Origin: Pedobacter sp. PACM 27299 | GTDB taxonomy: Bacteria > Bacteroidota > Bacteroidia > Sphingobacteriales > Sphingobacteriaceae | Assembly: GCF_001412655.1 (NCBI RefSeq) | Contig: NZ_CP012996.1 | Coordinates: forward strand, 4,030,001-4,094,000 | DNA length: 64,000 bases | Direction: 5' to 3' | Shown: in pieces, positions 3,952-55,486 of the stretch | Position numbering within the stretch: position 1 is the first letter of the stretch | Layout of the letters: each line of letters begins with the position of its first letter | Notes under the pieces: model-generated | Database searches by the model: none | Told to the model about the DNA's origin: nothing | The model's input: only the letters and a program-made list of their open reading frames with translations | Made by a program: the position numbers and the translations under genes

Positions 3952-3999
3952 AACGTTGACCTATGTCAACGTTCTGCTCAAGTCCCAAATGTAACTTTG
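3952..3999 (+). promoter_or_regulatory. FNR/FixK-like box with perfect -7 element, promoter of the GlcG-like gene
   Basis: AACGTTGAC (3952-3960) and GTCAACGTT (3965-3973) form a perfect 9-bp inverted repeat around CTAT; its core is TTGAC-N4-GTCAA. The perfect Bacteroidota -7 element TAACTTTG (3992-3999) ends 36.5 bp from the centre, putting the box near -41.5 and the transcript start near 4004, 10 nt before the ATG at 4014. There is no T-run after the repeat, which argues against a terminator. Confidence 0.75.
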
Positions 4000-4013
4000 A
4001 GAAAAAAGGTACC

Positions 4014-4562
4014 ATGAAAAAATATCTAAAACTATTCCTATTTATACCCATATTCTGCTTTGGACAAACCAAGCAAAATACAGTTCTGCCAAAGGATGGT
4101 ACCCAAAATTTAAGTCCAGGCCCAAAAGATTCGTATGTGATCAAAATAGACCAGCTAACCTTACTTGCTGCAACTGAATTGAGCAGTTTAGTCAGCACAA
4201 AGGCCCATGAAATAAATAGAGTGGTATCCGTTGCCATTGTTGACCTGGCTGGACAAATCATTGTAATAAATCGCGGAGATGGTGTAGGTCCTCACAATAC
4301 CGAAGCAGCCAGACGAAAAGCATTTACCGCTGTTTCTACTAAAACGGCTACACTTCTGCTAGCTAAAAACGCAAAAATGACAGCTTCGACTGAAAATTTA
4401 GCCCAACTACCAGAACTTTTGCTGCTGGGAGGTGGAGTTCCCATTTATTACAATGACAAATTAATTGGAGCAGTCGGTGTAGCAGGCGGAGGAAGTCCTG
4501 AAAACGACGACCTGATTGCAAGAGCGGCACAGATCTTAAGCCTTAATCTAATCGCCAGGTAA
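4014..4562 (+). CDS. Secreted GlcG/HbpS-family (DUF336) haem-binding-type protein
   Basis: 182 aa from the ATG at 4014. The first 18 residues form a Sec signal peptide (MKKYLKLFLFIPIFCFG). A longer frame from 3963 would run through the regulatory palindrome and is rejected. The mature protein has the DUF336 fold: VVSVAIVDLAGQIIVINRGDG, HNTEAARRKAFTAV, LLLGGGVPIYYNDKLIGAVGVAGG and the final SPENDDLIARAA. Family members bind haem or act with oxidoreductases of unclear role; the exact function here is unknown. The next gene encodes a second secreted protein 30 bp downstream, likely one operon under the box at 3952-3973. Confidence 0.8.
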   Translation: MKKYLKLFLFIPIFCFGQTKQNTVLPKDGTQNLSPGPKDSYVIKIDQLTLLAATELSSLVSTKAHEINRVVSVAIVDLAGQIIVINRGDGVGPHNTEAARRKAFTAVSTKTATLLLAKNAKMTASTENLAQLPELLLLGGGVPIYYNDKLIGAVGVAGGGSPENDDLIARAAQILSLNLIAR

Positions 4563-4592
4563 AACATTTGATGATCACTAAATTTTAAAATT

Positions 4593-5006
4593 ATGTATAT
4601 AAAAAAAATGGTTATAGGAATGGTGCTAGCCTTATTCTCTAGTACCGGTTACGCACAGCAGCCCAGCTATCAATTGTCAAGTCATATCCTTGATGTCTCT
4701 ACAGGACTTCCTGCAGCAGGAGTACCTGTTAAACTTGAAAAGCTAGATGAGAAAAGCAAAAAATGGTTATCCTTAGACCAAAAGAAAACCGATGAGAATG
4801 GCAGAATTAAAGATTTTCTGGAAACCAATAAATCTGAAAATGGAATATTTAAGCTTACTTTTCTAATTGCGGATTATTTTAAGCAAAAAAACACAGCCTC
4901 CTTTTATCCCTTCATCGAAGTTGTTTTTGAAATCAGGGACGATAAACATTACCATGTACCTATCACTTTATCCCCTTATGGTTACTCCACTTATAGGGGT
5001 AATTAG
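4593..5006 (+). CDS. Periplasmic 5-hydroxyisourate hydrolase-like (transthyretin-like) protein
   Basis: 137 aa with a signal peptide ending near residue 21 (GYAQQ). Transthyretin-like core: SSHILDVSTGLPAAGVPVKL (His of the first active-site motif), an Arg in NGRIKDF, then HYHVPITLSPYGYSTYRGN. The family signature at the C-terminus is YRGS/T; here it is YRGN, a conservative but notable change. HIU hydrolases convert the uricase product to OHCU; no uricase or OHCU decarboxylase lies nearby, so the periplasmic role is unproven. Confidence 0.8.
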   Translation: MYIKKMVIGMVLALFSSTGYAQQPSYQLSSHILDVSTGLPAAGVPVKLEKLDEKSKKWLSLDQKKTDENGRIKDFLETNKSENGIFKLTFLIADYFKQKNTASFYPFIEVVFEIRDDKHYHVPITLSPYGYSTYRGN

Positions 5007-5069
5007 CAATACTGTTTTTGTTTAAAAACATCATTCGAGTGTTTATCGTTTTTAAACCTGAATTAATCA

Positions 5070-5105
5070 TTTTGGCCTGAAGAGCTCGATTTCTTTAGGC
5101 CAAAA
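5070..5105. terminator. Bidirectional terminator-like hairpin
   Basis: TTTTGGCCT (5070-5078) and AGGCCAAAA (5097-5105) form a 9-bp stem around an 18-nt loop, with A/T runs on both outer sides. It lies between convergent genes (secreted HIU-hydrolase-like and coupling protein). Confidence 0.6.
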
Positions 5106-5252
5106 TATCAATTAACCAGGCTTTTGTACCTGTTTTTTACAGCAGTGACATTTAAATTTTTTACATTCTGACCTTTATACTTAAATCCATATCTCATCGA
5201 GATTAACAACTGAAAACAACCTGCCGGAATTTATTACTGCACGATTTAAAGC

Positions 5253-7313
5253 TCAAATTGGGTTGATCTGATCTAAGGATTTCTTTGGTTTATTTTGCCG
5301 CTTTGGTCTGTTAACTACCGCCTTAACTTCTTGTTTTTCCTCAGGCTCTTTATCTACAGCACTCGGCTGATCAGTTAACTTCTGAAGTTCAGTAGCCACT
5401 AAATCCCTTATCTGCGTTTTAATTTTCTGGTACACCTGTTCTACATCAAAGGAAGTTACATTTTCTACTACTGGTATCATCTGGTAAACTGCCTCCTCCT
5501 GTTTAATGGCCTTGTGGTCATTTTGAATTTCACAATGGAACATCTTTAGTTTCATTTTCTGATCAGGATTATCTGAAAGTATCCCCACAAACTCACCAGA
5601 TGAAAGGGTCGCAATTTTAGAGGCAGGTATCGCAGATTCGAGTTGTAAGGACTTAGATATCGAGAGCTCAGTGCTACTAAAACTCTTAGTTTCCCGGTCC
5701 TGCATGATCCTACCAAAATTCTCACTGAATTTTTTGGCAGTATCGCCTGTGACCTGCCCAGAAATGATATTTCCAACAATACCAGTAATCACCGCTGCCT
5801 GCTCAGTGCCATAATCCTTCCGAATTTGTTCCAGGCTCTGAACCGCCAAACTCACACTGATCAAATTTGATCTGCAGGTTGCCAATAAGGAATCGGTACC
5901 ATTTAGAAAAATCGAAGGGAATTCGTCGAAGACTAAACTAGATTTTAACTGTCCTTTTCGGTTAACGAGTTTGATCATCTTTGATATGTATAAAGAAAGA
6001 ACTGCTCCATAAGTCTGCTGCTTTTGGGGATTATTACCCATACAAACTATCTTTGGTTCCAGAGGATTATTCAAATCCAGGGTAAAATCATTACCGCTGA
6101 GCACATAATAGAGCTGAGGTGAGGCTAACCTGGCTAGACCTATCTTAGCGCTGGCAATCTGGCCTTCCAATTGAGCTTTGGCATTGTTTTGATAAGCTGA
6201 AATAAACGGATTGATCAGCACCTGAATCTCCTCACAAGTCACCAGAATCGCAAAAAGCTGATCATAATTTACCTGCATCAGTTCAATCACATGAGGCAGC
6301 GTACAGTACTTCCCATTTTCATAACATCGCAGGTACCAAATGATGGAGGTTAAAAAATTGATGGGAGATTCCACAAAGAAATCTCCCTGCTTTTTGATCC
6401 AATCCCTGTTCAGTCCCATCATAATGGTTCTGGAGGCTTCTGTTGCATCTGTGATGTCCTCCATGCTCACCGGATCCAGTGGATTACATCGGTGTGTACG
6501 GCTCAGATCATCGAAATTAATGATGTAAAATTTAGGCTTGATCTGGTACCTGGGATAGTACTTTAGTAGCTTATTATAAGTAATTTTGGAAAGATCATCG
6601 TATTTGAAATCGTAAACGAACATACTGAAGCCCTTAGCCAGGTGCTGATCTATGATGTGACGAATCACAAAATAACTTTTTCCTGCTCCAGGACTCCCAG
6701 CAATGAGAATCCCTCTGAATGGATTGATGATATTGATCCAGCTAGCTCTGATTTGATCTTTTAACCGATATTTTGCCGGTAAATTAATAGAGTATTCATT
6801 CTCCAGCAGCTGTTCCTGCTGAGGGAAAGTTTCATTTTCTGAATTAAAAACATCCGTATTCAGCCTATCTTTTATTAGTCTGGACAACCTACTGCCCCCC
6901 GATAATATTAACAAATAGCCGAGCAGCGTTGAGCCTATATAGGTAACTGTGACCAGCTCAGCCGCTGCATTAAGGTAAAAACAACCTACGCTTGAAAAAT
7001 ATAGAAATACCCCGACCATCAAATAGACTACAATCTTCCGAATGCGGATAGCCTCGTCGATCTTCCCTTTTATACCAAAAACTGAAATAATAAGGCAAAT
7101 TAATGCTAAGAACTTAGCGACAATAAAACCACTAAAAACCCATGTTTTGGCAATATTCGCAATAATTCTATTGGTAATCTGCGAAGTCCAGCCCCAGCTT
7201 TCAAAAGCGACATAACAACTCAAGTAAAAATGCAAGCTTAGTATAAAAATGCTGATGTAGCGGGTAAAGTCTACAATCTTCCTTAAGGCAGTAAGATCCT
7301 CTCCGGTATTCAT
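5253..7313 (-). CDS. Mobilization coupling protein (TraG/VirD4-like, YWFCY-type N-terminus)
   Basis: 686 aa. The N-terminal 140 residues hold four membrane helices, including the Bacteroidota-type segment YVAFESWGW near residue 34. The ATPase domain has Walker A GSPGAGKSYF (residues 206-215) and Walker B SLVFDEFPSIF (about residue 450). The C-terminus is a Lys/Glu-rich tail. It should couple the relaxase-DNA complex to a type IV secretion channel at the inner membrane. It follows the relaxase gene by 26 bp in a three-gene mobilization operon. No other transfer (tra) genes are in the window, so the element would depend on a helper conjugation system. Confidence 0.85.
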   Translation of the reverse strand: MNTGEDLTALRKIVDFTRYISIFILSLHFYLSCYVAFESWGWTSQITNRIIANIAKTWVFSGFIVAKFLALICLIISVFGIKGKIDEAIRIRKIVVYLMVGVFLYFSSVGCFYLNAAAELVTVTYIGSTLLGYLLILSGGSRLSRLIKDRLNTDVFNSENETFPQQEQLLENEYSINLPAKYRLKDQIRASWINIINPFRGILIAGSPGAGKSYFVIRHIIDQHLAKGFSMFVYDFKYDDLSKITYNKLLKYYPRYQIKPKFYIINFDDLSRTHRCNPLDPVSMEDITDATEASRTIMMGLNRDWIKKQGDFFVESPINFLTSIIWYLRCYENGKYCTLPHVIELMQVNYDQLFAILVTCEEIQVLINPFISAYQNNAKAQLEGQIASAKIGLARLASPQLYYVLSGNDFTLDLNNPLEPKIVCMGNNPQKQQTYGAVLSLYISKMIKLVNRKGQLKSSLVFDEFPSIFLNGTDSLLATCRSNLISVSLAVQSLEQIRKDYGTEQAAVITGIVGNIISGQVTGDTAKKFSENFGRIMQDRETKSFSSTELSISKSLQLESAIPASKIATLSSGEFVGILSDNPDQKMKLKMFHCEIQNDHKAIKQEEAVYQMIPVVENVTSFDVEQVYQKIKTQIRDLVATELQKLTDQPSAVDKEPEEKQEVKAVVNRPKRQNKPKKSLDQINPI

Positions 7314-7339
7314 AAGCAGATATTTTATTGGTGAAATTT

Positions 7340-8284
7340 TTATAGCCCCAGCTCTTGCTGCTGGTCATTTCGTTTTTTGCGACGCTTCTTTCTTTTGATA
7401 CTCATTGACGGATCATCATGACTTTTTGCCAAAGCAATTTCCAGGAAATTTGTTGACCGGACTGGCTGTAGATAACTAGGCAGCTCCAGTTTTAATTCAA
7501 GCGTTGGTTTCTTAGATTTATCACTTGTATTTGCCTGTTCAGGAATTCTTTCTTTTCCCTGCACAATTTCTAATCGCTGTTGAAGCGTACCATTCTTTTG
7601 AATATTAGCGTACTCAAATGTTTCCTTTAGACCACGATCAAATCCAAACTGCTGATCAAACAGTCTTTCTCCCGATGCTTTAAAAGCCGATCGGTCAAAC
7701 TGGCCAAGCTTCAGCGAATGGGCCACATTTTTACCTTTCGAGGTATTCATGGGACTGAGTCTGATGAGATTGGTGATATCCTTGCGGCTTACAATGACCT
7801 GGACATGAAGCTGCTGCCCGGGCTTTATGCTTCCTTTTTTTACAGTACCATCCTTAACCTGGGGATCATTGTAGCCATAATAGCGGTAGTGTTCCAACTT
7901 TGCATACCACAATAGGTCTTTTTCACCATTAACGCCCGGCCTTTTAAAATTACAGGCATATTCATTCATTACCTCAGCCGCATATTCCTTTAAAGCATTC
8001 TCCACTCCTTTTTCTCCATAAAGCGATTGGAGGTAACTGATCTCTTTCTGTGAAGGACTGATGTTGATTAGAAAAAACTTAGCATCATCCTTACATAGCT
8101 TTGCAATGTTCTGATCCAGATTGTGTTTAACCAAATAGGATGGAATGGCATCGCTTGTACCATTAAACCACAGTTCAGGCTTTAGGTCTTTTGACATTCT
8201 ATTTTCCTTATCCAGGTAATGCACCAACTCCCCACAGCTACCTTTATTATTTCCCTTATCACTATCAGTAATGTTGATAAACAT
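7340..8284 (-). CDS. Relaxase-like mobilization protein (DUF5712 type, MobB)
   Basis: 314 aa. It starts MFINITDSDKGNNKGSCGELV with HYLDKENR, the N-terminal pattern of Bacteroidota mobilization proteins. The motif GQQLHVQVIVSRKD (near residue 150) resembles the metal-binding His strand of relaxases although only one His of the usual HUH pair is seen. The C-terminus is very basic (KRKKRRKKR). It lies 11 bp downstream of the BfmA/BtgA-like gene and upstream of the coupling protein. Role inferred: nicking and leading the transferred strand at oriT. Confidence 0.75.
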   Translation of the reverse strand: MFINITDSDKGNNKGSCGELVHYLDKENRMSKDLKPELWFNGTSDAIPSYLVKHNLDQNIAKLCKDDAKFFLINISPSQKEISYLQSLYGEKGVENALKEYAAEVMNEYACNFKRPGVNGEKDLLWYAKLEHYRYYGYNDPQVKDGTVKKGSIKPGQQLHVQVIVSRKDITNLIRLSPMNTSKGKNVAHSLKLGQFDRSAFKASGERLFDQQFGFDRGLKETFEYANIQKNGTLQQRLEIVQGKERIPEQANTSDKSKKPTLELKLELPSYLQPVRSTNFLEIALAKSHDDPSMSIKRKKRRKKRNDQQQELGL

Positions 8285-8295
8285 AAGACTGATTT

Positions 8296-8874
8296 TTACA
8301 GCGTTTCGATTTGTTTTCTTGCCAGTTCAGCCAGCTCGTTTTTTTCTTTGGTTTTGAAGCTTCCCAAATTTTCCCTGTTTTTGATATAAGTATCCAGTAT
8401 GATCAGAAATTTTTGCTGAAGTATCCTTTTGATTTCTTTAACCTCGTATAGCACTTTAATCATAGCTATAGACTCATCAATTCGCCTCAAATGAACATCC
8501 TGGTTCTCAAGTAATAATTGGTTTGCCTTTAATACCTGATCATTAAAAAAGCTTACAATTTGTTCCTGATTTTTGATCATGCGTTCCATCTCCACACGCA
8601 TGGGTATCAGTAATACCTTTTCCTGGGATTTGATAAAACTGACATAAGCATCATGATTTCTGGACAATGCTTTTTTAAGCTGTTCATCCCCTATGTCTAG
8701 CGGATCTTTTCCACTACGGTAAAAGTACTCCACCATTTGCACAAACAGCCGGCTCTGGCTTCGCCCGAACTTCTCAGAAAGCTTCAACAGTTCGTTGTGC
8801 ACTGATATCGGGAAGCGTATAGATTTCTCAGCAGGCCTGTTTCTTTTAACGCTTTTGCTTTTGGATATATCCAT
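8296..8874 (-). CDS. BfmA/BtgA-family mobilization accessory protein
   Basis: 192 aa from the ATG at 8874 (MDISKSKSVKRNRP). The N-terminal 50 residues resemble a ribbon-helix-helix DNA-binding region (KSIRFPISVHNELLKLSEKFGRSQSRLFVQMVEYFY); the rest is a long helical, coiled-coil-like segment. The family assists relaxosome assembly in Bacteroides-type mobilizable elements. An upstream in-frame ATG at 8907 adds 11 residues and is less likely. The candidate oriT is directly upstream. Confidence 0.75.
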   Translation of the reverse strand: MDISKSKSVKRNRPAEKSIRFPISVHNELLKLSEKFGRSQSRLFVQMVEYFYRSGKDPLDIGDEQLKKALSRNHDAYVSFIKSQEKVLLIPMRVEMERMIKNQEQIVSFFNDQVLKANQLLLENQDVHLRRIDESIAMIKVLYEVKEIKRILQQKFLIILDTYIKNRENLGSFKTKEKNELAELARKQIETL

Positions 8875-8919
8875 CGTACATATTGTTTTAAAGGTTTTAG
8901 CGTGCATAAAGAACGAGAA

Positions 8920-8985
8920 ATATACCCGGAGTATATTCTAAACCCCCTCAGCGATAGCGCCAAGGGGGTAAAGTAAGGCGCTGCC
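8920..8985. other. Candidate oriT: nested inverted repeats upstream of the mobilization operon
   Basis: Three inverted repeats are packed in 66 bp: ATATAC/GTATAT (8920-8936), ACCCCCT/AGGGGGT (8942-8948 and 8963-8969) and the imperfect GTAAGGC/GCCTAAC (8968-8985). Position between the BfmA/BtgA start and the IS is where Bacteroidota mobilizable elements carry oriT. The nic site is not identified, so the call is inferential. Confidence 0.45.
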
Positions 8986-9034
8986 TAACTTCCGCTTGCT
9001 CCTTTGACTCGTCCTAAAATACGTTTACGATTTT

Positions 9035-9979
9035 TTATTCTTGATCCTGCATTAGATTTACAGCAGCATCGTAGTCCTGAATAGGATTTACAATAGTACT
9101 GTTTTTGTGGTAATAATTCTTCCATAATCGCTGGGGTAATATGCTTCCAGCATGAACCTGATCAGGAGTTAGATTTCCTATGCTCATATGGGGCCTTTCC
9201 TCATTGTAGAGCTTGATTACAAAGTCCAGAACCTGTTTCCCTTCTTCCAAATTGTTAACGCTATAGCTGCTTAAGTATTCGTTTTTTATAATTCCGTTAA
9301 CACGTTCGGCAATGGCATTATCCCTTGGATCTCCGCTTTCAGTCATACTTATTTGCACCGTACTTTCCTCCAGCGTCTGTATATACTCATTGCAGCAGTA
9401 CTGTAAGCCGCGGTCTGAATGATGACAGAGGAATTCGATGTTCTCTGCATTAGATAATGCCATTTTCAAGGCCTTAACCGTTTCTACAGCCAAAAGGTTG
9501 TCGGCAACATTATATCCAATAATCTTTCTTGAAAAGGCATCCGTAATGAAGCTGATATACAAAAACTTATCATTTATCTTCCAGTAAGTAATGTCACTTA
9601 CCCATAAGCGGTTTGCCGCCCCAGGCACAAAACCCTTTATTAGATTTGGAAATTTTCGGTACATGTGAAAGGAATTAGTTGTTGATATTCTCCGCTTGTA
9701 CCTCTTTACCAACAAACCAGGCGTTGATAATAGATCAAATAAGGCATCCCGTCCCATTTTTATCTGATGTTCCAAAAGAAACGGTTGAATCAGCTCATAA
9801 AGCTTTCTTGTTCCCATATGTCTATGATCTTTTCTCATCTCAATAACTTTTTTTAATACTAGCTCTTGTTCTATGGTGATAGCCTGGTTATGCCACCAAT
9901 GCTGATAATAGGCTTGCCTGGTCATTCCAAGTATTCGACAGATGCGTGCAAGGCTTTTCCGCTTGTTTCTGTCTTTCAT
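9035..9979 (-). CDS. IS3-family transposase OrfB (DDE integrase core)
   Basis: 314 aa. HTH_21-type N-terminus (LARICRILGMTRQAYY), then the rve core with catalytic acidic residues in WVSDITYW, CHHSDRGLQY and PRDNAIAERVNGIIKNEYL (D, D, E). The C-terminal RPHMSIGNLTPDQVH matches the family. It is expressed as an OrfAB fusion by -1 frameshifting at 10003-10009 and possibly alone from its ATG. Confidence 0.92.
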   Translation of the reverse strand: MKDRNKRKSLARICRILGMTRQAYYQHWWHNQAITIEQELVLKKVIEMRKDHRHMGTRKLYELIQPFLLEHQIKMGRDALFDLLSTPGLLVKRYKRRISTTNSFHMYRKFPNLIKGFVPGAANRLWVSDITYWKINDKFLYISFITDAFSRKIIGYNVADNLLAVETVKALKMALSNAENIEFLCHHSDRGLQYCCNEYIQTLEESTVQISMTESGDPRDNAIAERVNGIIKNEYLSSYSVNNLEEGKQVLDFVIKLYNEERPHMSIGNLTPDQVHAGSILPQRLWKNYYHKNSTIVNPIQDYDAAVNLMQDQE

Positions 9980-11090: not shown

Positions 11091-11870
11091 TTATACAAAA
11101 AGCGTTTGCTCATCAGTATAATACGTGGTTAATTGAGCATTCATTTTCATTTTAATCACCTTCCCTGTTGGACTACATTTTTTCTTGGCATTATGAATCA
11201 TTAATAAATCAAGGCCTTTTTGTTTATCGTTGAACAAGTCTAACTTCCTTGCTTGCTTGATCAGGTCTTGTAAAACGTACTTAATTGTTTTATGAAGAAT
11301 TCTAACTTCAGTCTTTGGAATCCTACTTACAATTGAAAAAGGAGAAATATTGGCAAACCAAAGAATTTCATCCGCATAGGCTTGATCTATTCCCCTAATT
11401 ACTTTCTGATCGATTAACAAGGATTTGACCTCGACTTCTGTTTCAGAAAACAAGTTCATGAGGTAGTCCACTGACATTTCCTTAGATAAAACATCAGGAA
11501 CAGCCAAAGCAACCGGGTTCAGATCAAACCTACTCAGTTGCTGACAATCCTTGACACTAATAATTTGTCCACCACTAAAACTAAAGTCTAATAATCCAGC
11601 AGTGACCTCCTGATTTTGCATGATAATTTGAAATTCTGTCGAATTGGATAAGTTGATTTCCAAGACCGAATGATTCTTGAACTGAAAGCATAATGAAAAC
11701 CCGTCACGCCAAACTTTTTTCAATTCATGACCTACAAGATTTTCATTTAGCGCTGCAATGGAAACATTGATACAACTATCCTGCATAATATTCAGCTTTT
11801 GCAGAAGCCTGTTTTTATACTTTCTATCGAAAATTTCAGCACAAATTTCTAAGTAAGGTAACGTAAACAT
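11091..11870 (-). CDS. Fpg/Nei-like DNA-glycosylase fold protein lacking the catalytic N-terminus
   Basis: 259 aa. The helix-two-turn-helix segment is clear (VKSLLIDQKVIRGIDQAYAD, then EILWFANISPFS; about residues 148-178). Active Fpg/Nei enzymes begin M-P-E and use Pro2 as the Schiff-base nucleophile and Glu3 as acid; here the start is MFTLPYLE, with Phe and Thr at those positions. The C-terminal zinc finger is also reduced: one Cys in KKKCSPTGKVIK and none of the usual paired CxxC. It may bind DNA or damage without classical glycosylase chemistry. It has its own promoter with a perfect FNR box, so it belongs to the low-oxygen regulon. Confidence 0.7.
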   Translation of the reverse strand: MFTLPYLEICAEIFDRKYKNRLLQKLNIMQDSCINVSIAALNENLVGHELKKVWRDGFSLCFQFKNHSVLEINLSNSTEFQIIMQNQEVTAGLLDFSFSGGQIISVKDCQQLSRFDLNPVALAVPDVLSKEMSVDYLMNLFSETEVEVKSLLIDQKVIRGIDQAYADEILWFANISPFSIVSRIPKTEVRILHKTIKYVLQDLIKQARKLDLFNDKQKGLDLLMIHNAKKKCSPTGKVIKMKMNAQLTTYYTDEQTLFV

Positions 11871-11902: not shown

Positions 11903-11967
11903 TAAAGGTACGCTGTCTTCCTACCTTCTTTTCCTGCTTTATGCAATTCATTATTGATCTAAATCAA
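11903..11967 (-). promoter_or_regulatory. Perfect FNR consensus box with -7 element, promoter of Fpg-like gene
   Basis: TTGATCTAAATCAA (11954-11967) matches TTGAT-N4-ATCAA exactly and sits in a wider palindrome (ATTCAT/ATGAAT arms). TACCTTTA (11903-11910, minus strand) ends 57.5 bp from the centre. The box may also serve the divergent response-regulator gene at 12072, 105 bp to the right, but no well-spaced -7 element is seen on that side. Confidence 0.7.
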
Positions 11968-24254: not shown

Positions 24255-24291
24255 ATTGACTTAATTTACAACACACTCACTATAAGAACTA

Positions 24292-24686: not shown

Positions 24687-24703
24687 TATATAAACCTAAA
24701 ATC

Positions 24704-27562: not shown

Positions 27563-27589
27563 AATTCCTGGAATATGGTTTATTATTAG

Positions 27590-29930: not shown

Positions 29931-29933
29931 ATC

Positions 29934-37492: not shown

Positions 37493-37915
37493 CTAATGGA
37501 TCTTAATCTGTCTTTTTTTAAGCAGTACGCCCTTATCTGATTTTTTTAAGTTAATCGTAAACAGCCCATTATGGTATTTAGCAGAAATATGATCTTCAAG
37601 AACATTTTCAGGGAGGCGAAAGGATCCTGTAAATGAGGAATGGGAGAACTCCTTGCGGATATAGTTTTCATCACTTTCCTTTTCTGCCCTGCTTGACTCT
37701 GCAGTAACTGTCAACATGCCATTGTCAGTAGTAATCCTGAAGTCATTCTTTTTAAAGCCCGGAGCTGAAAACTCAAGCTTATACCTGCCTATTTTATCCT
37801 GTATGTTTACAGCATATTTAGGCTCATCAGAACTGGCAAAAGCCTCATCATCCCAGAAATTATCGGTCATCAAAGCTACTGTCGATAACGTTTCACTTTT
37901 TTTTAAGTTGGTCAT
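37493..37915 (-). CDS. Hsp20/alpha-crystallin small heat-shock protein
   Basis: 140 aa. The alpha-crystallin domain spans about residues 33-125 (YKLEFSAPGFKKNDFRITTDNGMLTVTA, GSFRLPENVLEDHISAKYHNGLFTINLKK) with the conserved A-x-x-x-N-G-L-type motif, followed by a short RQIKIH tail carrying an I-x-I-like element. Chaperone that prevents aggregation. Preceded by an FNR-like box. Confidence 0.9.
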   Translation of the reverse strand: MTNLKKSETLSTVALMTDNFWDDEAFASSDEPKYAVNIQDKIGRYKLEFSAPGFKKNDFRITTDNGMLTVTAESSRAEKESDENYIRKEFSHSSFTGSFRLPENVLEDHISAKYHNGLFTINLKKSDKGVLLKKRQIKIH

Positions 37916-37957: not shown

Positions 37958-38001
37958 CATTTATAGATGATTTGTATACGCGATTAGCATGATGCTCATC
38001 A
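37958..38001 (-). promoter_or_regulatory. FNR-like box upstream of hsp20
   Basis: TGATGCTCATCA (37990-38001). The best -7-like element is the weak TATAAATG (37958-37965, minus strand), ending 37.5 bp from the centre, one base off the spacing seen elsewhere. Confidence 0.5.
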
Positions 38002-40373: not shown

Positions 40374-40416
40374 TAAAGGTCTGTGTAATTGGGGGCATCT
40401 CAAATGATATGAATCA
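40374..40416 (-). promoter_or_regulatory. FNR-like box and -7 element, promoter of SHOCT/ALDH/YoaK operon
   Basis: TGATATGAATCA (40405-40416), flanked as ATGAT-N4-ATCAT. GACCTTTA (40374-40381, minus strand) ends exactly 36.5 bp from the centre. Confidence 0.62.
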
Positions 40417-45498: not shown

Positions 45499-45501
45499 AA
45501 A

Positions 45502-46703
45502 TTAGTTTTTTAAATTAGTATTGATGATATGGTCTATATGTTTTGCAATCATCCAGGCTTCATTTGTTTTGATCACCTGAACACTAACAGTACTATCTAA
45601 AGTAGAAATGATATCCTCTGAGGTCTGATGGAGAGCAGGGTCTAGCTTGATGCCCATAAATACCATGTCCCTGCAGATTTGTTCCCGGATAAGGGGAGCA
45701 TTTTCTCCAATACCTCCTGTAAAAATCAAAATATCCAATCCTCCTAAACCTGCAGCGAGTGCAGCAATTTGCCTTTTCGCCTGGTAACAGAATACATCAA
45801 TGGCTTCCTGAGCCTGAGGATCTGAAAACCGCCTATTGATCAACTCCTTCATATTCCCTGTACCAGCGATTGCTTTCAGCCCTGAAGAGTTGCTGAACAA
45901 TCCATCTAATTGTGCAGGTGTCATTTCGTATTTCCTTAAAAAAAACAAGATTACTCCCGGATCCAGATCACCTGATCGTGTGCTCATCACCAAGCCACCT
46001 ATCGGACTCATCCCCATCGTTGTTTCCTGGCCTATCCCCCGGAAACCGCAGCCATACTTGCACCGTTGCCCAAATGGGCAATAATTATTTTCTTTTGCTC
46101 AATATCCTTAGTTTTATTGCCAAGCTCCTGCATAATGAATTCATAAGAAAGGCCATGAAAGCCATAACGCATCAACCCCTGATCTCTAAAAGCCCGGGGC
46201 AAAGCATAAAACTTAGCAACGGAGGGCATATTTTGATGAAAACATGTATCAAAACAGGCTATATGGATCGCTTTTTGATATGATTCTCGAAAAATGCGAA
46301 TTAGCTGAATTTCCTCAGGCAGATGATTTGGAGCAAGATAAGTGTAGGACTCAAGAACCTTAATCAGATCTTCGTTGATTACCTCAGGCATTCTATGTAT
46401 AGGACCACCCTGTACCAACCGATATCCAATATGCTGAATCGGAAAGCGAGCTGATAATGAATCTAACCTATTTATCAACTCGGCCGCAGCAATCTCCAAA
46501 TTAAGATAAGGTGCCTCTTTGCTCAGTAAAAGTTTACCTGCCGAATCACTTATCAGCAATTTAGCTTGTTGATCACCAATTCCAGTTATAGATCCAGACC
46601 ACTCCAGCTCCATACTATGTTGATGATACAGACTAAATTTAAGACTCGAAGAACCCGAATTGAGTACAAGAATATAACCACCGATGGTATTTGAATGATG
46701 CAT
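45502..46703 (-). pseudogene. ackA: Acetate kinase, frameshifted at a G tract
   Basis: N-terminal frame from 46703: ILVLNSGSSSLKFSLY (phosphate 1), RYGFHGLSYEFIMQEL and HLGNGASMAAVSGG. C-terminal frame: GMSPIGGLVMSTRSGDLDPGV, TGGIGENAPLIRE. The break is at G5 (complement of 46036-46040); a sixth G gives SGGIGQETTMGMSP and a normal enzyme of about 400 aa. Converts acetyl-phosphate + ADP to acetate + ATP. First gene of ackA-xfp-ATPase; xfp starts 4 bp after it. Confidence 0.88.
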
Positions 46704-46755: not shown

Positions 46756-46820
46756 CAAATCTCGGCATTGAGCTATTGCTATGACATGATCAAACACCAG
46801 GGAAATCGTGACCCCCATCA
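46756..46820 (-). promoter_or_regulatory. FNR-like box and -7 element, promoter of ackA-xfp-ATPase
   Basis: TGACCCCCATCA (46809-46820). GAGATTTG (46756-46763, minus strand) ends 58.5 bp from the centre and is identical to the -7 octamer of the Usp gene at 27590. No well-spaced -7 element is seen toward the divergent sensor kinase gene. Confidence 0.6.
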
Positions 46821-46901: not shown

Positions 46902-48152
46902 ATGGAAAATACCGTTCTGCTTAAAGCGATCATCGATAATGCGATAGACGGTCTGATTACCATAGATGACCAGGGAATAATTGAGTCCATTAATCCCTCA
47001 GCCTGTAGACTATTTAGCTATACTGAACAGGAAGTTCTTGGAAAAAACGTCTCCATGCTCATGCCACAACCAGACCGGACAAATCATAACGGTTACCTCT
47101 TTCATTATAAAAAAACTGCTAAAGCCAGCATTATTGGTATTGGCAGAGAATTAACAGGCTTAAAAAAGAATGGCAGTACATTTCCTTTTCGTCTGGGCGT
47201 CAGTGAAGTTAAATACTCAGGAAGAATTATTTATGCTGGTTTTATTCATGACCTGAGCAGGGAAAAAGAAGCCGAATCACAACTCCAGGATTATGCCGCT
47301 TTACTCGAAGATCAGGTGCAGGAACGAACGCTTTCCCTTCGGGAAACGGTTGAAGCATTGGAAAAAACCAAGGTTGAATTGAATTTATCCCTGGAAAATT
47401 TGCACAATACTGTTTTTACTTTGGAACAAACCCAAAAGGAACTAAACTTATCCCTGGCAAAAGAACAAGAATTAGGAAAGCTTAAAAGTCGGTTCGTTTC
47501 TATTGCATCACATGAATTCCGAACACCTTTGAGTATGGTACAGCTTTCTGCATCACTTATTGAACGACATGCACTTCCTTTTGACAATCCAAACATCAGC
47601 AAACACGTAGACAAAATAAAAGATGCTGTACTGAATGTTACTGCAATCCTCAATGACTTCCTATCCCTGGAAAAACTGGATACCGGGAAAGTACAAGCTA
47701 AATTCAGTTATTTTAATTTGGCTGATTTCGCTGCAGAAATCGCTGAAGAGATGCAGATCGCTTTAAAAGGTGGACAAAAGATAGTATATGTACATAGGGG
47801 CCCAGAATTTATGATCACATTGGATCAGACCTTGTTAAAAAACTGCATCGTTATACTTATTGACAATGCGATAAAATACTCCGGGGAAGAAAGTTCTATA
47901 CAATTCTATACCAAGATCAATGAAAATAATTGCAGCATCAGAATTTGTGACAATGGCATTGGAATACCCTTAGACGACCAGAGACATCTTTGCGAGCCAT
48001 TTTTCCGGGCACATAACACGGGAAAGATCTCTGGCAATGGGCTTGGATTAAGTATACTTTCCAGGTATACTGAGCTGATGAATGGCAAAGTAGATTTCAA
48101 AAGCAGAATTAACCGAGGTACACTTTTCACCCTCACATTTCCCCAATCATGA
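46902..48152 (+). CDS. FixL-like haem-PAS sensor histidine kinase
   Basis: 416 aa, cytoplasmic, no membrane helix. PAS domain at residues 5-125 follows FixL closely: MLMPQPDRTNHNGYL, then SIIGIGRELTGLKKNGSTFPFRL. His62 aligns with the haem-ligating His of Bradyrhizobium FixL (His200) and Arg82 with its O2-contacting Arg220; the spacing of 20 is identical. A coiled coil (about 125-195) leads to HisKA with His204 (IASHEFRTPLSMVQL) and HATPase motifs NAIKYSG, DNGIGIP, GNGLGLSIL. Inferred role: oxygen sensor that phosphorylates the REC-Crp regulator, whose gene overlaps by 4 bp. Confidence 0.88.
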   Translation: MENTVLLKAIIDNAIDGLITIDDQGIIESINPSACRLFSYTEQEVLGKNVSMLMPQPDRTNHNGYLFHYKKTAKASIIGIGRELTGLKKNGSTFPFRLGVSEVKYSGRIIYAGFIHDLSREKEAESQLQDYAALLEDQVQERTLSLRETVEALEKTKVELNLSLENLHNTVFTLEQTQKELNLSLAKEQELGKLKSRFVSIASHEFRTPLSMVQLSASLIERHALPFDNPNISKHVDKIKDAVLNVTAILNDFLSLEKLDTGKVQAKFSYFNLADFAAEIAEEMQIALKGGQKIVYVHRGPEFMITLDQTLLKNCIVILIDNAIKYSGEESSIQFYTKINENNCSIRICDNGIGIPLDDQRHLCEPFFRAHNTGKISGNGLGLSILSRYTELMNGKVDFKSRINRGTLFTLTFPQS

Positions 48153-49201
48153 ACAAAAAAATATTGATCATTGAAGATCACGACGCCATAAGGGGAAACA
48201 TAGTTGAAATCCTGGAAATGGCCAAATACACGGTTTTTGAAGCTGACAATGGAAAGATTGGCGTAGAAATGGCGTTAAAACACATTCCAGACATCATTCT
48301 CTGCGATATCATGATGCCTGAACTTGACGGATACGGGGTATTATATATGCTCAATAAATACACAGAAACCTCAGCAATTCCTTTCATTTTTCTAACAGCC
48401 AAAGCCGAGCACAATGACCTGCGCAAGGGAATGGAAATGGGCGCAGATGATTACCTAACCAAACCTTTTGATGACATTGAACTACTTAATGCCATAGATG
48501 TCAGATTAAGAAAAAAAGCCCATCTTCAGCTCCAAAATCAAAACATGGCTAATGATTTCAAAGTGCTGGTAGCCAAAACCGATGGCCTGGCAGAATTCAC
48601 TAAGATCATAACAGGCCACAAAAGCCGTGAATTCAGAAAAAACCAAGTTGTTTACTATGAGGCAGATCATAGCAAAGGCCTTTACCTGATCATCCAGGGT
48701 AAGATCAAAACCATTAAACTTTCAATGGATGGTCGTGAATTGATGACCGGTATGTATGCGACCGGAGATTACCTGGGCATCAATGCCATTTTAGGAAAAA
48801 GCACCTATAGTGATACTGCTACAGCAGTGGAGGATAGCACACTCAGTTTGATCCCTATGGAAGAACTTGAAAAAGTCATCAACCTTTATCCTGAAGTAGC
48901 GAGAAAGTTCATTCATCTTTTATCCAATGACAACCGGGAAAAAGAGGAACAACTCCTCCAGCTGGCTTATGATTCCGTCCGAAAAAAAATGGCTGGAGCC
49001 ATTCTTCGCCTGTACCATCAACAGATTATCAAAAAAGACGTTTTCAGCATTACCCGTGAAGACTTAGCAGCAATGGCCTGTATGGCTACCGAAACGGTAA
49101 GCAGAACCCTATCAGATTTCCGTAACGAAAAATTAATAGAACGTGAAGGGATAACCATTACTGTACTGGATCTGGAAAGGCTTGCGAAAATGAAGAACTA
49201 A
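48149..49201 (+). CDS. Response regulator fused to a Crp/Fnr DNA-binding module (REC-cNBD-HTH)
   Basis: 350 aa. Receiver at residues 3-122 with acidic IIEDHD, phospho-acceptor Asp53 (IILCDIMMPELDG), Thr83 and Lys105 (LTKPFDD). A cNMP-binding-like roll at about 150-250 and HTH_Crp at about 270-345, with recognition helix ACMATETVSRTLSDFRNE: Glu315-x-x-Ser318-Arg319 is the FNR/FixK reading set for TTGAT half-sites. It thus fuses the FixJ receiver role with the FixK binding role and is the prime candidate to bind the boxes in this window. Confidence 0.9.
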   Translation: MNKKILIIEDHDAIRGNIVEILEMAKYTVFEADNGKIGVEMALKHIPDIILCDIMMPELDGYGVLYMLNKYTETSAIPFIFLTAKAEHNDLRKGMEMGADDYLTKPFDDIELLNAIDVRLRKKAHLQLQNQNMANDFKVLVAKTDGLAEFTKIITGHKSREFRKNQVVYYEADHSKGLYLIIQGKIKTIKLSMDGRELMTGMYATGDYLGINAILGKSTYSDTATAVEDSTLSLIPMEELEKVINLYPEVARKFIHLLSNDNREKEEQLLQLAYDSVRKKMAGAILRLYHQQIIKKDVFSITREDLAAMACMATETVSRTLSDFRNEKLIEREGITITVLDLERLAKMKN

Positions 49202-50037: not shown

Positions 50038-50331
50038 TTAACCTGCTTTCATCTGGATAAAATTGGTTAAATGCTCTTCAAGTAAAGCGGTTTTAAAGTC
50101 ATTATCAGGTCCATTGTCAGTTATTGTAATCTCCTGATCTGACACACTAATTGTTAAAGCAGTTCCAGCAATTATATCAGGAAACAGCACATTGATCTCA
50201 TTATAAACATGGACGAAGTCTATATTCAGCATAGCATCTAATTTAGTGTTGATATAATCTGGAAATTCCCTTTTTAGAAGGTCGAAAAGAACTACAGCAC
50301 TTAAAGGATGTATGTTTTTAATTGTTGTCAT
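50038..50331 (-). CDS. Hypothetical protein, 97 aa
   Basis: Not recognised. I take the ATG at 50331 (MTTIKNIHPLSAVVLFDLLKRE) because the longer frame from 50439 starts upstream of the predicted promoter. Compact alpha/beta-looking protein (LDAMLNIDFVHVYNEINVLFPD, TALTISVSDQEITITDNGPD). Its promoter has two FNR-like boxes, so it is part of the regulon. Confidence 0.6.
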   Translation of the reverse strand: MTTIKNIHPLSAVVLFDLLKREFPDYINTKLDAMLNIDFVHVYNEINVLFPDIIAGTALTISVSDQEITITDNGPDNDFKTALLEEHLTNFIQMKAG

Positions 50332-50396: not shown

Positions 50397-50460
50397 CAAA
50401 TGTAGATAATGAAAATTCGCTGATAATGATCAACATCATAGATCACACTGATTTACATCA
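50397..50460 (-). promoter_or_regulatory. Two FNR-like boxes with a perfect -7 element
   Basis: TGATAATGATCA (50421-50432) and TGATTTACATCA (50449-50460), centres 28 bp apart. TACATTTG (50397-50404, minus strand), a perfect TAnnTTTG, ends 57.5 bp from the distal centre and 29.5 bp from the proximal one. The proximal box is thus close to the -33 region and could repress. Confidence 0.68.
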
Positions 50461-50817: not shown

Positions 50818-51525
50818 TTATTTGTAGTTGGAGCGGGCGATGAGCTTTTCGATATCTATAACCCGAATCTTCCTACCTTCGGTTTCAATGATTTCTTCTG
50901 TTTTAAACTCCTTTAACAACCTAATTACATTTTCCTTTGCGATACCGGCAATATTAGCCAGATCAGTCCTAGAAATATCAATAATTATTTCTTTGCCTTC
51001 TTCAGTCTCAATTTTAAACTTTTCACGCATTACAATCAGCGCAATTGCCAGTCTTTCGACTGCACTACGCTGCGCAAAGACAGAAATATTATTAGCAAGA
51101 ACTGAGTATTCATGACTCAAAGATTTCAGTAAGCGATTTGCAAATATCGGAGAGGTATTTAAAACCGTTAAGAAGTCATCCTTAGGGATAAAACTGATCA
51201 TACTATCTTCCATCGCAGCAGCAAAGTCAGGATACCGTTCTTCAGATAAAACAGCATGATAACCAATCAGCTCCCCTTTATTGGCAACATAAATAATCTG
51301 CTCTTTTCCGCCAGGATCAACCTTATATTTTTTAACCTTACCCTGATGAATAAAAAATATTCCATAAGGTACTACACCCTCTCTAAAAATAATTTCTCCT
51401 TTTTGATATCTCTGTTCTCCCTGGCGACCAATCAAAAAGCTATAGTCTTCGGCTGAAAGGATAGACACAATAGATTGAGTAGTAAAACTCCATTTATCAA
51501 TCGGAAAAATGCCTGATAAGCTCAT
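50818..51525 (-). CDS. Crp/Fnr-family transcriptional regulator
   Basis: 235 aa from the ATG at 51525 (MSLSGIFPIDKWSF); the longer frame from 51633 overlaps the DUF983 gene. cNBD roll (QKGEIIFREGVVPYGIFFIHQGKVKKYKV) and HTH_Crp with recognition helix GIAKENVIRLLKEFKTEE. It keeps the Glu and Arg of the FNR set but has Ile for Ser. No Cys cluster for a 4Fe-4S sensor. CAAAGATA at 51530-51537 (minus: TATCTTTG, perfect TAnnTTTG) abuts the ATG, suggesting a leaderless message. Confidence 0.88.
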   Translation of the reverse strand: MSLSGIFPIDKWSFTTQSIVSILSAEDYSFLIGRQGEQRYQKGEIIFREGVVPYGIFFIHQGKVKKYKVDPGGKEQIIYVANKGELIGYHAVLSEERYPDFAAAMEDSMISFIPKDDFLTVLNTSPIFANRLLKSLSHEYSVLANNISVFAQRSAVERLAIALIVMREKFKIETEEGKEIIIDISRTDLANIAGIAKENVIRLLKEFKTEEIIETEGRKIRVIDIEKLIARSNYK

Positions 51526-51619
51526 CCCGCAAAGATACAACATAATAAACCTGATACATACATATGATTTGTACAATTGATTTACAATCAGCCTATCACA
51601 TGCATGTGGATGGATCCTA

Positions 51620-51994
51620 TCATTTGTTTTCATATCTTACTCCCGGAGTCAACCAATAGAGTAGAATAACCCTTGAATATCTAAAATTAAAAGGTCCCAA
51701 GATGACAATTCCGCTCATAAGTACGCCACCGTACAACCAAAAAGAGGAAAGGTCTGCGGTAACGCCATAGGTTAGCAGACAAACCAGCAGCATTTCTACT
51801 ACATTCATTCCATAGCTGATAAACATCGAGGCATAAAAATAACCTGGCTCACGCTCAAACCGGTAATGACAATTTGAACAGCAATCGTTCATGTGCTGAA
51901 CATGAAATCCGTACATACTATTAGAAAACATATTTCCTACTCTACATCTTGGACATTTTGCATGTCTTAATGCGTAGGACTGTGATTTATTCAT
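51620..51994 (-). CDS. DUF983 membrane protein
   Basis: 124 aa. Two CxxC pairs ([12 protein letters not shown] and [21 protein letters not shown]) followed by two membrane helices, the DUF983 signature. Role unknown; family members often sit near cytochrome oxidase assembly genes. Its start overlaps the stop of the isocitrate dehydrogenase gene by 4 bp. Confidence 0.85.
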
Positions 51995-53540: not shown

Positions 53541-54161
53541 TTATTTTTTAATCCACATTCTCAAAGGTTTATTGAGATCTTGTTCAACCAGCTCATATCC
53601 TAAAGGAATATGATGTACATATCCATGGTAGGTAACCAGCCTTGTTCCGCTGGCCATATTTTCCAGGGCCTTGCATAAATAATTAGAATAATAGGCATAC
53701 AAACCCGGAGAGTAGTCAATAGACTCATCTATACGCGCAACGTCGATTAAATTTTCAGCAAATGCATTGTAAAAGTAAATGCTATCATAGTATCTGAGAT
53801 TCGATTCTGTAAAATTACCATGAAGAAACCGGACATTACCGAGCTCAGTTCTTCGCTGTGCTTCAATAGCCATATCAAACAGATCTTTCCTCTGTTCCAC
53901 ACCATGAAACTCTGAATCAGGATGAGCATGTGCGGCGGCAATACAAAACTTACCGATGCCACTCCCAATATCCAGGATTTTAGATCCGGGAACCGGAGCT
54001 AAAAATGAAGCCGCTTTTTTTGCTATAGCCAAGGGGGTCCAATGGACTTTTGATATCTTTTTTATCCGTTCCGGGAAAAAGCTATCGAACACTGAATCAT
54101 CAACGTAATAGTTCAAAGGCAACAAACCGTAATCCATAAGATTATACTGATCAGTATCCAT
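53541..54161 (-). CDS. SAM-dependent methyltransferase (class I Rossmann)
   Basis: 206 aa from the ATG at 54161 (MDTDQYNLMDYGLLPLNYYVDD). SAM motif I SKILDIGSGIGKFCIAAA, motif II region EFHGVEQRKDLFDMA and a C-terminal GTRLVTYHGYVHHIP. Closely related to the frameshifted paralogue at 59020-59614. Substrate unknown; the DOT1/KMT-like layout is only a faint resemblance. In the 54347-51620 operon. Confidence 0.82.
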   Translation of the reverse strand: MDTDQYNLMDYGLLPLNYYVDDSVFDSFFPERIKKISKVHWTPLAIAKKAASFLAPVPGSKILDIGSGIGKFCIAAAHAHPDSEFHGVEQRKDLFDMAIEAQRRTELGNVRFLHGNFTESNLRYYDSIYFYNAFAENLIDVARIDESIDYSPGLYAYYSNYLCKALENMASGTRLVTYHGYVHHIPLGYELVEQDLNKPLRMWIKK

Positions 54162-54215
54162 TATAATTAGGATAAAATAGCGTGAAAAATGAATGACTTT
54201 TAAAAACAAGGGGCT

Positions 54216-54347
54216 TTACAGCAGGATGATCAATCCAAGAAAAATTCCAATTATCATTATCAAGTACATTAAAAGCTCTGTACTTGCGAAACTTTTATAC
54301 TTCGCCCAAAATGAATCTTCATTTGAAGGTATTTCCTTTTCACTCAT
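54216..54347 (-). CDS. Small single-helix membrane protein, 43 aa
   Basis: ATG at 54347, stop at 54216. A charged N-terminus (MSEKEIPSNEDSFWAKYKSF) precedes one membrane helix (LLMYLIMIIGIFLGLIILL). The distance to the box (100 bp) and to the next gene fit a genuine first gene of the operon. No family known to me. Confidence 0.6.
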   Translation of the reverse strand: MSEKEIPSNEDSFWAKYKSFASTELLMYLIMIIGIFLGLIILL

Positions 54348-54388
54348 ATTCCTGTAATTAAATATGGAGTCTAATGATTTCCATGATG

Positions 54389-54453
54389 TAAAATTAGCCT
54401 TATTAAGTACTTATTTCACAGAAAGATATCAGTACCTACACTGATAATAATCA
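54389..54453 (-). promoter_or_regulatory. FNR-like box and -7 element, promoter of the 54347 operon
   Basis: TGATAATAATCA (54442-54453). TAATTTTA (54389-54396, minus strand) ends 58.5 bp from the centre. Predicted start near 54384, 37 nt before the ATG at 54347. Confidence 0.6.
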
Positions 54454-54497
54454 TCTTTTAATATTCTAATGAGGAAGTTTAGGAAATACTCAGGTGC

Positions 54498-55235
54498 TCA
54501 ATGACCCTTCATCGCATTTGCCGTTTTTTGGTAGTATCGTTTTGCCTTAATTCTAAAAATATCGTAGAATAATGCATATATCAAAATGCTTATCGGTGCA
54601 AAAAAAGACTTAAACCCGAAATGATGAAAAAGGTATGCACCAACAACTGCACCTGTCATAAAAAAAAATATAATGACCAATCGAAGCTTTATCTTAGCGA
54701 TAAGAGCTGGATGATCATGTTTACTTTTATTAAACAACTGTGCTAACTCTATACCAAGATCAGTAAACGTTCCGGTCAGGTGCGTAGTTCTTACCATCGA
54801 ACCAGAAATCATAGATACCAAAGAATTCTGTAAGCCCATTGCAAAAAGCAGACTGCCAGCAAAGATCTCTTTAGCAACTAAAGTTCCATCATATCGATGA
54901 CCATATAACGCAGAAAAAAGAAGGATAATAATTTCAATAAAAATAGCAATGAAATAAGAAAAGCGTTGGTTATGCCCCGTCAATGAAAGAATTAAGCTTG
55001 AAATGAAGGCACCTGCTAAAAAAAGGAACATCCATAAGGCAACAACCTGAGCAGTATGCCAATCTGCAAGGGCAATTTTTTCAGCCAATAAAGCGGCATG
55101 TCCGGTAACATTCGTAGTCAATACTGCAAAGCCCAGAAATCCCTCTGCGTTAACGAATCCTGCGGTTAGTCCCAGTAAAGTTGCTAATTTAAGGTTATGT
55201 TGAGGCGTACGTTTTGCCCCCAGGTGTCTTAACAT
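54498..55235 (-). CDS. YoaK/DUF1275 membrane protein (paralogue)
   Basis: 245 aa, same length as the paralogue at 38031 and similar throughout (GFVNAEGFLGFAVLTTNVTGHAALLAEKIA; MGLQNSLVSMISGSMVRTTHLTGTFTDLG). Monocistronic. The FNR-like box at 55422 is 193 bp upstream of its start and fits better with the divergent operon. Confidence 0.85.
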   Translation of the reverse strand: MLRHLGAKRTPQHNLKLATLLGLTAGFVNAEGFLGFAVLTTNVTGHAALLAEKIALADWHTAQVVALWMFLFLAGAFISSLILSLTGHNQRFSYFIAIFIEIIILLFSALYGHRYDGTLVAKEIFAGSLLFAMGLQNSLVSMISGSMVRTTHLTGTFTDLGIELAQLFNKSKHDHPALIAKIKLRLVIIFFFMTGAVVGAYLFHHFGFKSFFAPISILIYALFYDIFRIKAKRYYQKTANAMKGH

Positions 55236-55421
55236 GGCTGTTATTTATTGCATTTTCAATGACAGCTTTTACTCCTATTACACGTATAGAAAATTATGTT
55301 GTTGGCAAGCTATGTAAAAAATTGCAAATGTCTAGAGCGAGCCAATGTAGGGATAATCCAGTTATTTCATGCAACTATCAAAAAAGAAGGCCATGAAAAA
55401 TGATCCGGTTATTTTATAAAC

Positions 55422-55486
55422 TGATAAGTATCACCCTCATCTATGATTTCTTACTGTAAAACACTCTGATCTAACCAATAGATTTG
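55422..55486 (+). promoter_or_regulatory. FNR-like box with perfect -7 element, promoter of the synthase-pckA-gcvH operon
   Basis: TGATAAGTATCA (55422-55433). TAGATTTG (55479-55486), a perfect TAnnTTTG, ends 58.5 bp from the centre. The start is predicted near 55491, leaving a leader of about 290 nt before the ATG at 55784. Confidence 0.7.

Follow-up and report, generated by a model that had tools for sequence, protein, structure and literature searches.

A 64,000-nucleotide stretch of the Pedobacter sp. PACM 27299 chromosome (hereafter the window; bases 4,030,001-4,094,000 of a 6,147,290-bp single-contig genome) was found to be rich in palindromic boxes of the form TGAYN4RTCA, which stand at fixed distances from promoter octamers and are often arranged as tandem pairs 22 bp apart. 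The same window encodes, in paired genes, a FixL-like sensor histidine kinase (46902-48152, + strand) and a response regulator (48149-49201, + strand) in which a receiver is fused to a Crp-type output, here termed REC-CRP. From these sequence features, we consider it likely that the window carries a low-oxygen two-component regulon in which the kinase and REC-CRP act through the paired sites. The genes nearest to the window's REC-CRP gene are those of Pedobacter sp. N36a (96%) and P. cryoconitis (91%), and the window is closest to Pedobacter.

The window contains 23 TGAYN4RTCA boxes, compared with a mean of 5.07 in 100 shuffles (standard deviation 2.23, largest 11). An earlier note on this DNA had listed 19 palindromes by eye, all of which match the pattern at their listed starts. 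Four more were found here, two of them coding (31404 and 38804) and two overlapping listed boxes (36201 and 50427); the registers 36201 and 50427 fit the promoter geometry better than the listed 36198 and 50421. In the whole genome (6.15 Mb), 684 boxes were counted versus 250 for a reversed-pattern control, or about 7 per 64 kb, and the box density of the window is about three times that of the genome. By a mechanical open reading frame (ORF) mask, 18 of the 23 window boxes are intergenic; by our reading, the five masked boxes comprise three in spurious ORFs (3957, 50421 and 50427) and the two coding ones. When 18 evenly spaced 20-kb stretches of the rest of the genome were sampled, 7 of 44 boxes were intergenic, which is not above expectation for a genome that is 15% non-coding, and the two 20-kb stretches flanking the window held 5 boxes, none of them intergenic. 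The note spoke of a local regulon, but such sites also occur at a paralogous island, at a third FixL/REC-CRP locus near 4.33 Mb in the same genome, and elsewhere.

The boxes were also examined for their distance to TAnnTTTG, the promoter -7 element of Bacteroidota (distances run from the box centre to the last base of the octamer). Perfect octamers at set distances are present at 3992 (+), 50397 (-) and 55479 (+), the same three that had been reported, and nowhere else in the window. With up to one mismatch, 18 box-octamer relations fell into the six bins at 35.5-37.5 and 57.5-59.5 bp (seven at 36.5 bp, six at 58.5, three at 57.5 and two at 35.5, tandem pairs being entered at both distances). 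By comparison, 163 other bins held 0.34 relations each (maximum 3), and 2000 jittered box sets gave a mean of 1.5 relations in the six bins (maximum 7). The 18 relations represent 13 distinct promoters and one coding match (31404), close to the minimum of 14 promoters originally claimed; no octamer with at most one mismatch was found in these bins for boxes 24579, 37990, 38804 and 40405 or for registers 36198 and 50421. Genome-wide, the pattern box-N20-50-TAnnTTTG had 33 matches versus 7 for the control, three of the 33 being inside the window; counting from the listed lengths, we place 6 of the 33 at 36.5 bp and 5 at 58.5 bp, where 31 distances were possible. Fixed box-promoter distances, here with peaks at 36.5 and 58.5 bp, are characteristic of Crp/Fnr activators at class II and class I positions.

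The same geometry was observed in a replication set of 80 loci encoding REC-CRP relatives (Pedobacter, Mucilaginibacter, Flavobacterium and others; 1.5 Mb). These loci contain 480 boxes, 356 of them intergenic, compared with 6-29 intergenic matches for each of nine control palindromes. Perfect TAnnTTTG octamers stood at 58.5 bp in 69 cases, at 57.5 bp in 10, at 59.5 bp in 10, at 36.5 bp in 17 and at 35.5 bp in 5, with at most 3 at any other distance up to 110 bp; in the 18 sampled genome stretches, 87 box-orientations yielded no perfect octamer at 36.5 or 58.5 bp. In the 80 loci (L041-L120), TAnnTTT[ACT] octamers formed a further peak, 18 of them lying 33.5 bp from a box centre.

In the 69 perfect 58.5-bp promoters, a second, weaker box begins exactly 22 bp past the first, with the consensus TGAY-N4-CTCATT. 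The base preceding TCA in this proximal box is C in 35 of the 69, and the promoters are A-rich upstream and T-rich after the distal box. Relaxed partners numbered 110 at 22 bp, and none of the other spacings tallied gave more than 11. Partners with at least five of six core bases were found in 217 of 959 cases at 22 bp and in no more than 18 at each remaining offset in the range 13-60 bp. The window itself has four strict 22-bp pairs, 5/6 partners beside 24323, 29965, 40405 and 54442, and 4/6 partners beside 55422 and 46809. Two boxes spaced by 22 bp, the distal one strong and the proximal one weaker, often form the unit, and the distances of 36.5 and 58.5 bp are then two faces of one promoter; the earlier note had given both distances but missed the pair. 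The boxes are FNR-like in their core only. The canonical FNR site TTGAT-N4-ATCAA was rejected on its flanks, as both outer bases (TTGAY..RTCAA) were present in 11 of the 480 boxes and one of the two in 81, and the designation FNR/FixK-like thus holds for the core and not for the flanks. That all of this is an artefact of chance or composition, with palindromes chosen by eye and octamers loosely matched, would be in keeping with the imperfect match of most window octamers and with the lack of an intergenic excess in the sampled rest of the genome. Nonetheless, this explanation was rejected as extremely improbable, because it is contradicted by the shuffles, the control palindromes, the 22-bp unit and the recurrence of the same two distances in 80 independent loci that had never been read by eye.

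The kinase has a PAS-HisKA-HATPase architecture (Pfam), including a HisKA and HATPase transmitter. Its residues 7-130 aligned to the haem PAS domain of Bradyrhizobium japonicum FixL (1dp6, E 3e-29), and both the His of HDSYIS and the Arg of IIGIGR are kept; in FixL, these serve as the haem ligand and the distal Arg, respectively. A kinase with both residues was found in 74 of the 80 loci (one alignment being partial), and the kinase probably binds haem. We call it FixL-like rather than FixL because its NCBIfam score lies below the cut-off of the FixL equivalog (149 bits versus 850; the rhizobial model has 485 positions versus 416 residues here). REC-CRP consists of a receiver, a cyclic nucleotide monophosphate (cNMP)-binding fold and a Crp helix-turn-helix (HTH) with the recognition helix ETVSR (Pfam). 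Its phosphorelay residues D53, T83 and K105 and its helix residues E315, S318 and R319 are present in all 80 homologues. The HTH is HTH_Crp_2, and not the LuxR/GerE HTH that follows the receiver in FixJ. With FNR and FixK the protein shares a cNMP-type sensor fold, a Crp HTH and an ExxSR helix, but it is not a stand-alone protein, having an N-terminal receiver, and it lacks the Fe-S cysteines of FNR, its only Cys being at positions 52 and 311. Of the at least 8,000 candidates scored in a database search, 7,939 reached E ≤1e-30, and the receiver, cNMP and HTH_Crp_2 domains were present in all 120 of the matches listed. The genome encodes six proteins above the HTH_Crp_2 cut-off, three of which are REC-CRP, the other two being 92% and 57% identical to that of the window. 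Four of the six helices were read: ExxSR is present in the window REC-CRP and in a protein at 1480 kb, and absent from the product of the 50818 gene and from a protein at 4432 kb.

Putative targets were defined in the homologous loci as genes preceded by a box and by an octamer with no more than one mismatch, with mechanical ORF calls. Among the 257 genes assigned, 51 fall into a cluster represented by a D-2-hydroxyacid dehydrogenase (D-lactate dehydrogenase-like, D-LDH-like), 33 are the FixL-like gene itself, 17 encode fused CcoNO and 9 pyruvate phosphate dikinase (PPDK); further assignments include universal stress proteins (Usp, 15), Ca-ATPases (5), acetate kinase (4), phosphoketolase (3) and Hsp20 (3). 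A radical-SAM protein with one assignment is read as HemN. The third FixL/REC-CRP locus, near 4.33 Mb, carries part of the D-LDH-like dehydrogenase together with CcoNO and the HemN-like gene. Next to the pair at 740 kb lies a gene for an acetyl-CoA hydrolase/transferase. Another recurrent target (14 assignments) is a short protein of 118 aa (e.g. L098:4781-5134), membrane-like by eye, which had no Pfam or NCBIfam match. Genes for Usp, Hsp20, Ca-ATPase, Mla, phosphoketolase and acetate kinase are also numerous in the window itself. The regulon might be real and yet respond to a signal other than O2, with the PAS domain sensing NO, CO, the redox state or nothing, as part of a general stress or stationary-phase response. 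The Usp, Hsp20, Mla and Ca-ATPase genes would suit dormancy or stress, haem in the kinase PAS is a prediction, and DosP-type haem PAS domains align to the kinase too. We regard such a signal as rather unlikely, given that the best PAS matches are FixL, that the haem His and the Arg recur in the loci as noted above, and that cbb3 oxidase, a HemN-like protein, the D-LDH-like dehydrogenase and PPDK are among the putative targets.

The association of the sites with REC-CRP was measured in 198 genomes of the class, in which 22-bp pairs were counted on both strands (a perfect pair counts twice) and REC-CRP was scored as present at E 1e-40, a threshold that admits a few split or partial copies. The mean tandem count was 7.5 in the 97 genomes with REC-CRP versus 1.4 in the 101 without (medians 4 versus 0; p 7e-17), and within 24 families holding both states the mean difference was 4.2 (permutation p 2e-4). 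The association also held among genomes without a family of stand-alone FNR-like regulators (p 2e-15), of which the window has one member (50818-51633, - strand; recognition helix ENVIR; identified from Pfam and sequence). With presence of this family scored among the matches listed, mean counts were 11.1 in genomes having both (n=39), 5.1 with REC-CRP only (58), 2.8 with the stand-alone family only (44) and 0.35 with neither (57). The Crp protein family at 1480 kb (helix EVISR) was considered as a cause of the tandem sites and had no effect (t 1.0).

Several observations weigh against our interpretation. The 80 loci are mutually related and were picked by closeness to REC-CRP, and the perfect 58.5-bp promoter is present in 52 of them. 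Most octamers of the window are imperfect. The target list consists of genes near REC-CRP, without a control gene set, and when 49 frames of the window were compared, 173 of the 257 assigned genes lacked a homologue there. Eight of the 97 REC-CRP genomes have no tandem pair, 26 of the 101 genomes without REC-CRP have at least three, and the stand-alone family raises the tandem count independently (ordinary least squares t 7.1 versus 11.5 for REC-CRP). Moreover, the 36.5-bp register also occurs without REC-CRP (21 of 28 among the matches listed). In favour of our interpretation, the 58.5-bp register tracks REC-CRP (34 of 47 with REC-CRP versus 4 of 12 without, among the matches listed; one third is the chance expectation in each).

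The stand-alone family explains much of the mismatch between REC-CRP and tandem counts. Six members from genomes that lack REC-CRP were read; five of them (those with the N-terminus read) show an N-terminal CxxC plus further Cys, as in Fe-S FNR, and all six have the helix ETxIR. In view of this motif and of the family's independent effect, the box type is probably common to an Fe-S FNR-like protein and REC-CRP; the 50818-51633 protein is a possible second reader of the boxes, and REC-CRP may not be their sole binder. A stronger form of this explanation, in which the stand-alone family is the main reader of the boxes and REC-CRP either only co-occurs with it or shares its sites as a partner, seems to us improbable. 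The effect of REC-CRP is the larger of the two, REC-CRP predicts sites in genomes where the family is not among the matches listed, and the window member has ENVIR in place of ExxSR and no Cys after its likely start, MSLSG. As a regulator of the sites, REC-CRP, which the earlier note had proposed, is well supported and is the best candidate, but not an exclusive one.

We propose that the kinase, like FixL, which is inhibited by bound O2, would be held inactive by O2 and would phosphorylate the receiver of REC-CRP when O2 falls, so that the REC-CRP polypeptide alone would cover the two steps of FixJ and FixK. Active REC-CRP would bind TGAYN4RTCA via its ETVSR helix, typically as two dimers with site centres 22 bp apart, the strong distal box lying 58.5 bp upstream of the last TAnnTTTG base and the weaker proximal one 36.5 bp upstream of it, which would correspond to about -62.5 and -41. 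Judging from known promoter geometry, the proximal box lies where the -33 element would be; the proximal dimer could therefore occupy the place of that element and contact the sigma-bound polymerase, and the distal dimer could stabilise it. The expected targets are genes of fermentation and micro-oxic respiration (D-LDH-like dehydrogenase, PPDK, acetate kinase, phosphoketolase, cbb3 oxidase and HemN-like protein) and stress genes (Usp, Hsp20 and Ca-ATPases), and the gene for the FixL-like kinase would itself be a target in many genomes.

Of the tandem sites in the window, boxes 24622/24644 (24622-24655, +) have the octamer AACCTTTG at 58.5/36.5 bp and precede gene 24704-25084. Boxes 27643/27621 (27621-27654, -), with GAGATTTG at 58.5/36.5 bp, precede the Usp gene 26699-27592. 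The pair 30601/30623 (30601-30634) is divergent, with CACTTTTG at 36.5/58.5 bp toward a DUF1003 gene (-) and TACCTTTA at 57.5 bp toward an MlaE gene (+). Boxes 50421, 50427 and 50449 (50421-50460, -) include the tandem register 50449/50427, which has the perfect octamer TACATTTG at 57.5/35.5 bp, before the small gene 50038-50331. Neither this gene nor 24704-25084 had a Pfam or NCBIfam match, the Pfam result for 50038-50331 applying to a longer frame. Box 46809-46820 (-) lies between the divergent acetate kinase (46032-46703, -) and FixL-like (46902, +) genes, with GAGATTTG at 58.5 bp toward acetate kinase.

Other boxes appear singly or with weaker partners. Box 11955-11966 (-) precedes an H2TH-domain glycosylase-like gene (11091-11870), with TACCTTTA at 57.5 bp and a response-regulator gene on its other side (12069, +). 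Box 24323-24334 (-), before the Usp gene 23421-24254, has the octamer TATATTTA at 36.5 bp and a 5/6 partner, TGGTTTGTATCA, 22 bp upstream; in the same intergenic region (24254-24704), box 24579-24590 has no octamer at the set distances. Box 29965-29976 (-) precedes a Scaffold-domain protein gene (29046-29936), with AACATTTG at 36.5 bp and its 5/6 partner upstream. At the overlapping boxes 36198-36212 (+), register 36201 has TAGCTTAG at 36.5 bp, before the DUF892 gene 36263-36784. Only two-mismatch octamers were found at box 37990-38001 (-), upstream of the HSP20 gene 37493-37915, and at box 40405-40416 (-), between Ca-ATPase and aldehyde dehydrogenase genes, where the 5/6 partner is TGACGAGTGTCT. 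Box 54442-54453 (-) has TAATTTTA at 58.5 bp besides its 5/6 partner, and the next same-strand gene, methyltransferase-like (53541-54209), starts more than 170 bp past the octamer. Finally, the site at 55422-55486 (+) has the perfect octamer TAGATTTG at 58.5 bp and the 4/6 partner TGATTTCTTACT, and the next long gene begins only at 55784.

Box 3957 (site 3957-3999, +) was set apart because its box type, its 36.5-bp spacing and its neighbouring cNMP-domain gene recur at two other places in the genome. It lies inside the longer palindrome AACGTTGACCTATGTCAACGTT, has its perfect octamer at 36.5 bp and adjoins a small cNMP-domain regulator gene (3375-3950). The layout of 3375-4562, in which such a gene is followed by a box of the type TGACCTAxxTCAACGTT and by TAnnTTTG at 36.5 bp, is repeated at G000:C1:3919041-3919659 and G000:C1:1640138-1640743. 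The genes beside both repeats (G000:C1:3919617 and 1640138) are homologues of 3375-3950, the 1640-kb copy aligning as two overlapping pieces. The arrangement looks as if each small cNMP-domain regulator controlled its neighbour gene, and box 3957 probably belongs to another regulator, outside the REC-CRP regulon; the assumption that all boxes form one regulon was rejected for this reason.

Much of the window from 11000 to 50000 is duplicated, in inverted orientation, at about 2,979,000-3,023,000 of the same contig (G000:C1), with matching proteins mostly 58-100% identical and many boxes in common. The pair 24622/24644 is also present there, at 3023147/3023169, and box 11955 is kept despite flanks that are only 59% identical (82/140). 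Between the islands, 87 of 88 box core positions are kept versus 84% in the flanks, in 11 pairs that leave out the coding boxes 31404 and 38804; because these pairs were chosen for having a box in both islands, this conservation was not used as proof. For the intergenic boxes 24579 and 27643, the boxes listed from the second island include no strict equivalent. The acetate kinase and phosphoketolase genes at 43139-46703 are broken into two reading frames apiece, through either decay or sequence error; in the second island, the pieces of each gene share a single frame. Adjoining the island, at 5253-9979, lies part of a mobile element, which encodes a conjugation coupling protein (YWFCY, T4SS-DNA_transf), a DUF5712 protein and an integrase-core protein.

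To our knowledge, oxygen control in aerobic Bacteroidota and the action of activators at TAnnTTTG promoters are poorly known, and we know of no earlier general activation geometry for these unusual promoters. For many Bacteroidota, we lean slightly toward a single-step oxygen switch, in which a FixL-type haem kinase would control a fused FixJ/FixK-like activator that binds as a pair of cooperating dimers spaced by 22 bp, with the proximal dimer in place of the -33 element. If so, a three-tier cascade would be condensed into two proteins, which would be a main counterpart of FNR/FixLJ-K in Bacteroidota and would provide the first general activation geometry for TAnnTTTG promoters. REC-CRP is present in about half of the 198 sampled genomes, and the regulator, site, promoter geometry and target list can now be tested. 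The accessible part of one study treats CRP/FNR homologues of Flavobacteriales and Saprospiraceae metagenome-assembled genomes as carbon-sensing and makes no mention there of a receiver (PMC8510549). Among open-licence papers, mostly in the form of titles and listings, no description of the present system was found.

The proposed system can be compared with several known ones. It resembles the FNR/ANR regulons in its ExxSR recognition helix, its TGA..TCA core, a class II-like position and targets such as fermentation, cbb3 and Usp genes. It differs from them in that REC-CRP is under receiver control and has two Cys in all, with no N-terminal Fe-S motif, and in that the TT..AA outer bases are rare. 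The DosS/DosT-DosR dormancy regulon of mycobacteria likewise combines a haem kinase and a response regulator with Usp, Hsp20 and cation-ATPase targets, but its sensor domain, HTH class and DNA site are different. Like the rhizobial FixL-FixJ-FixK cascade, the system starts from a kinase with a FixL-type haem PAS, ends in an FNR/FixK-type HTH and has among its putative targets cbb3 oxidase, which is a FixK target in rhizobia. Unlike that cascade, it has a response regulator whose HTH is Crp-type (that of FixJ is NarL type), with receiver and Crp/Fnr output in one protein, and it uses paired sites with a 22-bp period and box flanks that differ from the FixK/FnrN consensus TTGANCNNGATCAANG (FixJ, FxkR and FixK/FnrN site facts are from the accessible part of PMC4999443). 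The hFixL-FxkR-FixK pathway of Rhizobium is similar in that a FixL-like sensor acts on a non-FixJ regulator, and dissimilar in that FxkR is a separate regulator that recognises GTTACA-N4-GTTACA sites and acts on fixK, as far as the accessible parts of the sources describe it (PMC4999443, PMC7888657).

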